This document shows, piece by piece, positions 52,298-52,926 of a stretch of 64,000 bases of DNA. Position 1 is the first letter of the stretch. Every line of letters begins with the position of its first letter. The stretch lies in the NCBI RefSeq assembly GCF_000337735.1, contig NZ_AOHX01000025.1, positions 106,539-170,538 on the forward strand, in the 5' to 3' direction. The notes under the pieces are model-generated. The model was given only the letters and a program-made list of their open reading frames with translations. It had not been told where the DNA came from and did not search any database. The stretch comes from Natronorubrum sulfidifaciens JCM 14089. Its GTDB lineage: Archaea; Halobacteriota; Halobacteria; Halobacteriales; Natrialbaceae. The translations under genes and the position numbers were made by a program.

Positions 52298-52320
52298 ACG
52301 TCGGCAATGTCCGAGCGGCT

Positions 52321-52328
52321 ACTTAACG
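52321..52328 (-). promoter_or_regulatory. TATA box of orc1/cdc6
   Basis: CGTTAAGT on the minus strand, 24-31 nt upstream of the ATG at 52297; it abuts the first origin repeat, so initiator binding could repress its own gene. Confidence 0.5.
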
Positions 52329-52338
52329 CTAACTCCTC

Positions 52339-52350
52339 AGTGCCGGTGTA
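52339..52350 (+). repeat. Origin repeat R1
   Basis: AGTGCCGGTGTA, followed by AACACACC. First of the five direct copies, next to the orc promoter. Confidence 0.75.
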
Positions 52351-52360
52351 AACACACCGC

Positions 52361-52372
52361 AGTGCCGATGTA
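52361..52372 (+). repeat. Origin repeat R2
   Basis: AGTGCCGATGTA, 22 bp after R1. Confidence 0.75.
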
Positions 52373-52424
52373 GATTTGTAAAACGACCGTTTCAGGCGAT
52401 TTAGAGAGGTTTTGTCCACTCCCT

Positions 52425-52436
52425 AGTGCCAGTGTA
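52425..52436 (+). repeat. Origin repeat R3
   Basis: AGTGCCAGTGTA, followed by AGTGGACC; 64 bp after R2. Confidence 0.75.
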
Positions 52437-52446
52437 AGTGGACCGG

Positions 52447-52458
52447 AGTGCCAGTGTA
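52447..52458 (+). repeat. Origin repeat R4
   Basis: AGTGCCAGTGTA, preceded by CCGG; 22 bp after R3. Confidence 0.75.
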
Positions 52459-52488
52459 ACACGGGAGGATGGAACACACCCACCCCGG

Positions 52489-52500
52489 AGTGCCGATGTA
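52489..52500 (+). repeat. Origin repeat R5 (extended form)
   Basis: AGTGCCGATGTA within a 21-bp extended match (52481-52501, beginning CACCCCGG) to the inverted copy R6. 42 bp after R4. Confidence 0.8.
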
Positions 52501-52758
52501 ACTGTTCCGAACGTGTCCACGAGAAACGCTGGGAAATCCGAGACAGCAACGTGGAATCGAACGGAAAGCCGGAAGACGAGTCACACGCGTTTCGGCTGGA
52601 CACGTTGTGACCGATGTCACAACTCAATTGTCGTGACTCTCGTATGACCGGTATCGAAGGTCCATTATTTATATGCTTTGGTATTGCTGTATGAAGAACG
52701 TCGAACGAAATCCCTATTTCTCCGGGAGAATCGCTGTTGGACTCACTCTCGGACGATT

Positions 52759-52770
52759 TACATCGGCACT
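52759..52770 (-). repeat. Origin repeat R6 (inverted, extended form)
   Basis: AGTGCCGATGTA on the minus strand; the extended 21-bp match to R5 covers 52758-52778. R5 and R6 face each other across the A/T-rich tract, the usual arrangement of strong Orc1 sites around an unwinding element. Confidence 0.8.
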
Positions 52771-52926
52771 CCGGGGTGTGTCTGCCTCATCTGGATATGC
52801 AGTGATCCGCTCTCGAACACTCTCGAGTAGAACACCGCTATAGCTGTCAGTAACTCGGCTCTCGAGTGTCGTCTATGCGGGCAGACATCGCGGAGGTTTT
52901 GGTTCGGGGACGAATACGTCTCGGTA

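Follow-up and report, generated by a model that had tools for sequence, protein, structure and literature searches.

The locus formed by an orc1/cdc6 gene of Natronorubrum sulfidifaciens JCM 14089 and the intergenic gap at its start is most likely a module of initiator and origin, of a kind familiar from haloarchaeal orc1/cdc6 genes and their ORBs. It lies in the window, by which we mean the whole 64,000-nt stretch of DNA analysed, on a 374-kb contig of a 3.46-Mb genome in 63 contigs, and its gap (52298-52926) separates the leftward orc1/cdc6 from a rightward gltX. The module comprises orc1 and its promoter, then five boxes in direct orientation and, beyond a spacer that contains an A/T-rich element, a sixth box that is inverted. 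Three features exceed this ordinary anatomy: a diverged ORB, short box steps close to whole helical turns (pooled over four Orc groups) and a conserved palindrome in the spacer. Orcs at least 84% identical to the one encoded here (the clade, or group A) were found at 8 loci in 7 of 125 family genomes. The features of the window locus are as follows, with the identity of spacer elements taken over five representative clade loci:

51101..52297, minus strand: orc1/cdc6 initiator gene, 398 aa (TIGR02928, E 1.4e-126; 2v1u, a Cdc6 homologue, E 4e-61)
52320..52326, minus strand: TATA-like orc1 promoter element (TTAAGTA), 23-29 bp before the ATG, the same seven letters in 8/8 clade loci
52339..52350, plus strand: box 1, exact core, 12 bp from the TATA-like element
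52361..52372, plus strand: box 2, step 22
52425..52436, plus strand: box 3, step 64
52447..52458, plus strand: box 4, step 22
52481..52501, plus strand: box 5 with its C-string, 21 bp (core 52489-52500), step 42
52605..52622, no strand: mid-spacer palindrome TTGTGACCGATGTCACAA, in a block (52593-52625) of identity 0.90
52633..52649, no strand: conserved spacer block GTGACTCTCGTATGACC, identity 0.91 over 52631-52648
52665..52681, no strand: A/T-rich conserved element TTATTTATATGCTTTGG, candidate unwinding element, identity 0.92 over 52664-52681
52758..52778, minus strand: box 6, inverted (core 52759-52770), its 21-bp extended form identical to that of box 5

Known haloarchaeal origins share this anatomy (PMC3528665). 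As in the origins described there, ORB-like repeats lie in an intergenic region adjoining orc1/cdc6 and are inverted across an AT-rich stretch, a G-string is present (a C-string in our case, as read from the opposite strand), Orc and ORB families are linked, and the loci are spread over chromosomes and megaplasmids; that survey takes in 15 genomes, and its Table 1 has no Natronorubrum entry. At the window locus, the gap lies directly beside the gene for a full-length 398-aa Orc1 (TIGR02928), a protein that scores below the cut-off of each of the four ORC1-type models in NCBIfam (NF001623-NF001626). Two of the six boxes, 5 and 6, are inverted across the A/T-rich spacer, and the C-string reads CCCC in both of them and is weaker in boxes 1-4; of its two inner C's, one is kept in 45 and the other in 46 of the 47 clade boxes. 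Orc-family-specific ORBs, G-strings and a scatter over chromosomes and megaplasmids are known features (PMC3528665, PMC4441112, PMC4010727), G-strings are essential in H. hispanica, where one ORB cluster titrates (PMC3936714), and plasmids have been sustained by origin fragments from Natrinema J7 (PMC5350488). Haloarchaeal oriC1 also has inverted ORBs with the C-/G-string outward and an AT-rich region between (PMC3936714), but its Orc is reported in all haloarchaea, whereas the clade Orc is carried by 7 of the 125 family genomes. Searches of open-licence PMC returned no paper whose title concerned a Natronorubrum replication origin or cdc6, no paper on gltX with cdc6 at a haloarchaeal origin, and no study, among the texts so reached, of helical ORB spacing or of ORB-initiator co-evolution.

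A first-pass annotation had read the gap as an origin from six exact copies of AGTGCCRRTGTA, five direct and one inverted, with start-to-start steps of 22, 64, 22 and 42. All six copies are present at the box positions listed, the steps are correct, and copies 5 and 6 agree in every letter of their 21-bp extended form (52481-52501 and, inverted, 52758-52778). The A/T-rich tract placed between these two is real but modest, the best 50 bp reaching 66% A+T and the lowest GC being 38% in 60 bp. Copy 1 does lie beside an orc1 TATA, since the TATA-like element at 52320-52326 (minus strand) is 12 bp away. Within the window, the core has 20 matches at up to 2 mismatches against 7.8 expected, a number that none of 100 shuffles reached. 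The motif also proved not to be widely scattered: of seven exact copies in the 3.46 Mb, six cluster at this locus, against a chance expectation for the genome of ~1.7 (our own estimate, with equal bases), and the seventh, at C25:257310, departs from the C-string pattern; one such extra copy is about the number that chance predicts.

The array is found beside the clade Orc in 8/8 loci. Five of these are in Natronorubrum with gltX alongside, two are on megaplasmids of 881 and 891 kb in Natrinema sp. SYSU A 869, and the eighth (G098) is on a contig of 6.9 kb. No gltX was found around the two Natrinema loci or in G098 (19.0, 19.5 and 6.9 kb examined). Relative to orc, the boxes start at 44, 66, 130, 152, 194 and 462-474 in seven of the eight loci; in G098 they start at 46, 131, 153, 251 and 539, and there is in addition a degenerate box in second place. 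Box identity over the five representative loci is 0.85-0.95, vs 0.53-0.74 in the unmarked stretches of the gap. A search of the 125 family genomes with the pattern CCNNAGTGCCGATGTA returned 26 matches: 21 at the module in the seven Orc-bearing genomes, all of which have it, one at a decayed module in a Natronorubrum congener (G105), and four strays (G006, G068, G099 and G122). The pattern was not found in 113 of the 118 family genomes without the clade Orc, and ORB sequence and Orc family are linked. Since the array is kept where gltX was not found, whereas it is not upstream of gltX in Orc-less Natronorubrum, it belongs with orc1; comparison with the orc1-gltX gaps of relatives, as the first-pass annotation had proposed, finds a conserved array that follows the orc gene. 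The stray at G099:C37:4545-4560 is a single box match (CCGGAGTGCCGATGTA); its genome lacks the clade Orc and belongs to the same genus as G098, and the match is possibly another relic. A scan of viral contigs with the box gave one match per contig among the matches listed, which is uninformative.

The clade Orc was not found in five of ten Natronorubrum genomes (G103-G107), so it is dispensable in the genus, and neither was the array upstream of gltX in these five; idsA lies ~200 bp from gltX in G104 and G106. In G105, the region upstream of gltX (L243) retains a 3′ orc fragment of 119 bp (84%, E 1.5e-31) together with a single box, identical to the extended box over 23 bp. From this remnant it follows that the module was once present there and was then lost, gene and array having decayed at the same site; a weaker trace of 48 bp (E 7e-4) is seen in G104. 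The loss in G105 argues for a long residence at the site, rather than a recent insertion in the lineage of the window.

The core had been suggested to define a subfamily of its own, differing from known Orc boxes. Among the loci examined it is indeed specific to the initiator clade, but comparison with related groups makes it a diverged ORB and not an unrelated motif. Group B Orcs (about 64% identical, 63-65%) are from Natrialbaceae, group C Orcs (70-72%) from Halorubrum, Halobellus and Haloarcula plasmids, and group D Orcs (59-65%) from Haladaptatus and Halorussus; the boxes of all three mostly consist of a C-string and TGCCGCTGTA. The clade core is TGCCRRTGTA and its outgroup counterpart TTTCCGGTGAA. 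Boxes of the outgroup Orcs (L010, L085, L086 and L087; 55-58% identical) are mostly ACACACC-NNG-TTTCCGGTGAA in the same layout, and they connect canonical-looking ORBs with the boxes studied here.

Core position 6 was tallied in exact matches to T[GT]CCNNTGTA with the two N free, a pattern whose design holds the other core letters constant and passes over degenerate boxes. It is C in 210/211 group B, 28/28 group C and 30/34 group D boxes (268/273 in total), the group D exceptions being T. Of the 47 clade boxes, 45 have a purine there (30 A, 15 G), and both exceptions are in G098, the most divergent member. An order-wide draw gave C at this position in 91/93 boxes of 17 group C loci, 50/50 of six B loci and 7/7 of one D locus, counts that were tallied by hand from the listing and whose group C loci overlap partly with the plasmid records. 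The base after TGTA is T in 191/211 group B boxes (tabulated for 24 of 62 genomes and listed for 6 more) vs A in 40/47 clade boxes. The odd one out is thus the studied clade at core position 6 and group B at the base after TGTA.

In an Orc tree of 48 rows, built by a fast procedure and containing a very long branch in the outgroup, the clade forms one group (SH-aLRT 99) adjoining group C (99). Six other Orc paralogues extracted from the host genome and one near-duplicate row were left out, and L019 (no match in the extraction) and the Orcs of C31 and C45 are outside the tree. Because of this placement of the clade next to group C, C is probably the ancestral letter at core position 6, with A/G derived from it. 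C31 carries an Orc1/Cdc6 reading frame of 615 aa (G000:C31:21131-22486) whose family match falls in two pieces, which suggests an insert.

The layout is likewise shared. Group C has direct boxes by orc, a spacer and an inverted box; the spacer measures 274-293 bp in all of 23 loci but one, which has 337 bp (258-278 bp in the clade), and over the four related groups the first box lies 44-61 bp from the orc start in 42/43 loci. On a 311-kb Halorussus plasmid, the D-group module has the only Orc above the family cut-off, a second one falling narrowly below it (179.1 vs 181.3 bits). A group-C orc in G239 (L103) matches the H. sinaiiensis gene at 98% identity across residues 1-307, with a TAA within the match; four boxes are found in its gap. 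Taken on sequence evidence, the origin reading of the first-pass annotation is supported overall, with its box recast as a diverged ORB.

Conservation in the spacer is concentrated in the three listed blocks, at 0.90-0.92 vs 0.63-0.74 around them in the five representative loci, which is about the level of the boxes. The palindrome TTGTGACCGATGTCACAA is single-copy in the genome, even at 1 mismatch; both of its arms are intact in 6/8 clade loci, with one change in G073b and a broken form in G098. No like palindrome was found in 34 gaps of groups B, C and D, and group C has a different conserved mid-spacer block at a similar place. The A/T-rich element TTATTTATATGCTTTGG is present also in the loci where gltX was not found. 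Its minus strand, CCAAAGCATATAAATAA, resembles what we take to be a BRE plus TATA pointing to orc1; a transcript from there, if used, would cross the palindrome and the boxes toward orc1. At Sulfolobus oriC1, with ucm/UBP, inverted ORBs also flank the unwinding region with a conserved element between, and a motif between ORBs is needed for origin activity (PMC12141716). In Sulfolobus, however, ucm is common to several origins and UBP sits at many chromosomal sites (PMC12141716), whereas the palindrome occurs once in its genome here. The conserved palindrome may bind an additional origin factor, as ucm does in Sulfolobus.

The direct copies had also been placed on about the same side of the DNA helix. 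This stands for short steps when groups A-D are pooled: 178 same-strand steps of up to 66 bp give a resultant of 0.87 at 10.5 bp, the best period in an 8-16 bp scan, with recurrent steps of 21-22, 31-34, 42-43, 53-54 and 61-65, and the 25 distinct clade-step values give 0.52 (p 0.0017 vs uniform steps of 20-66). Longer steps weaken it: all 54 distinct values up to 130 bp give 0.24, group B alone gives 0.06 (distinct values), steps of 28-29, 45-46 and 48 are off phase, and G098 has a step of 98 bp. Boxes a short distance apart are therefore in phase, whereas long steps show weak phasing or none, in related loci that are non-independent. The near-whole-turn short steps of the four pooled groups suggest neighbouring Orc1 monomers on one helix face.

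We hold it very probable that initiator gene and origin form one self-contained module here. The Orc1 encoded at 51101-52297 would bind the six boxes, one monomer each, with a polarity given by the C-string. Boxes 5 and 6 face each other across the spacer with the A/T-rich element, where bound Orc1 would help melting and recruit MCM for loading, while the remaining direct boxes would add Orc1 along roughly the same side of the helix. Through box 1, which adjoins the TATA, Orc1 would control its own gene, an autoregulation that fits the near-constant distance of the first box from the orc start (44-61 bp in 42/43 loci), and the module may fire on the wild-type chromosome. GC skew was tried as a sign of origin activity and dropped: for N. 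bangense, the sampled 20-kb segment with the locus is also the one with the cumulative minimum, but the range is within that of permutations (p 0.19; 80 such segments sampled), and G101 gives no signal (p 0.87; 40 sampled 20-kb segments).

A sub-case of the module reading is a dormant origin, competent on a plasmid but outcompeted on the wild-type chromosome. Recently gained origins can be dormant, and H. mediterranei provides a precedent with its dormant origins (PMC4595724); in H. hispanica, two of seven predicted origins are without ARS activity (PMC3528665). The 12 Orc genes above the family cut-off in the host genome, the patchy spread (7/125 genomes) and the loss in a congener would agree with dormancy, which we regard as possible but doubtful, given that the strong conservation of boxes and spacer in 8 loci argues for use at least at times.

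We find it improbable that the boxes merely autoregulate orc1 or titrate Orc1, the gap being no origin. Such roles would suit a box 1 at 12 bp from the TATA and a first box so regularly close to the orc start, and an ORB cluster does titrate the initiator at oriC2D of H. hispanica (PMC3936714). Yet the oriC2D cluster is found downstream of its gene and has a separate origin as partner, whereas here an inverted pair spans a conserved spacer, as is typical of origins, and autoregulation alone would have no need for box 6, about 420 bp from box 1. A search for an oriC2D-type cluster downstream of orc found no core match, at up to 2 mismatches, in 40637-52296. Non-initiator Orc paralogues that control transcription exist (PMC9738581), but that this Orc is such an Orc1-2-like regulator, with the boxes as operators, is very improbable, as the exact boxes were not found as a set at other promoters and 6/7 copies are here. 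Repeats of the gltX promoter, this gene being the divergent neighbour in Natronorubrum, or plain chance can be dismissed as hardly credible, since the array persists where gltX was not found, the five gltX-bearing Natronorubrum without the clade Orc lack it (one retaining a single box), and the clustering is far above expectation.

The proposed module has a relative in the same cell. All seven clade-Orc genomes also hold a group B Orc, which is present in 62/125 family genomes, one each (by identity of 63-65%, hand count). In the order-wide draw, 62/392 genomes have a match to the group-C query at E 1e-160 or better, 59 of them with one match and three (G000, G101 and G108, A plus B) with two, by a cut that is incomplete, four candidates being scored per genome and the B-type Orc of G100 being missed. 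The genomes being related, the co-residence pattern is weaker than the counts suggest. In the host genome, the B origin is on C26 at about 377 kb, and it takes 6/7 of the C-type boxes, while 4/6 of the A/G-type matches are at the studied origin. The two are alike in their Orcs (64% identical), in the C-string and TGCCGNTGTA frame and in a first box near the orc start; the B origin differs in having C at core position 6 (A/G here), T after TGTA (A here), more boxes and another spacing.

One Natrinema strain (G073) has two near-identical A modules, L067 and L068 (NZ_CP082247.1 and NZ_CP082248.1), with nearly the same boxes, which counts against strict exclusion and against a simple form of incompatibility as the cause of the one-per-genome pattern. 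Near-full-length Orc matches above the family cut-off number five on the 881-kb and seven on the 891-kb plasmid, and the modules may not be the sole replicators of these megaplasmids.

On the protein side, 27 residues are clade-specific (in at least 7/8 clade rows and none of 35 B/C/D rows), including R348 (K in 35/35 B/C/D rows), E354, H374 and I381-E383; H382 is common to the clade and four outgroup rows. A structure model from a 6-row alignment has a mean pLDDT of 52.7 and a pTM of 0.37, a quality too low for a fold search, and its C-terminal part alone was used, with blocks of residues 301-360 at pLDDT 68-89 and the wing (361-390) at 41-60. This part presents a helix at 348-360 and strands at 364-368 and 378-383 (model numbering, residue number minus one). 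R348 is taken to lie just before, and E354 in, the putative recognition helix, and H374 and 381-383 would be in the wing, modelled at low confidence. Because there are 27 such residues across the protein, the link of the winged-helix changes to the box change is no more than suggestive. As a reading that we find possible though less likely than not, the change from C to A/G at one ORB position, together with winged-helix changes (R348, H374, I381-E383), may be a natural specificity switch that permits coexistence with the related B origin, in a supergroup that would otherwise be mostly once per genome because equal boxes interfere.

The question raised here is how the many Orc-origin pairs that haloarchaea have in one cell become and stay orthogonal. 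With two related pairs whose boxes differ chiefly at two positions, and with few candidate residues, this becomes testable by swaps.
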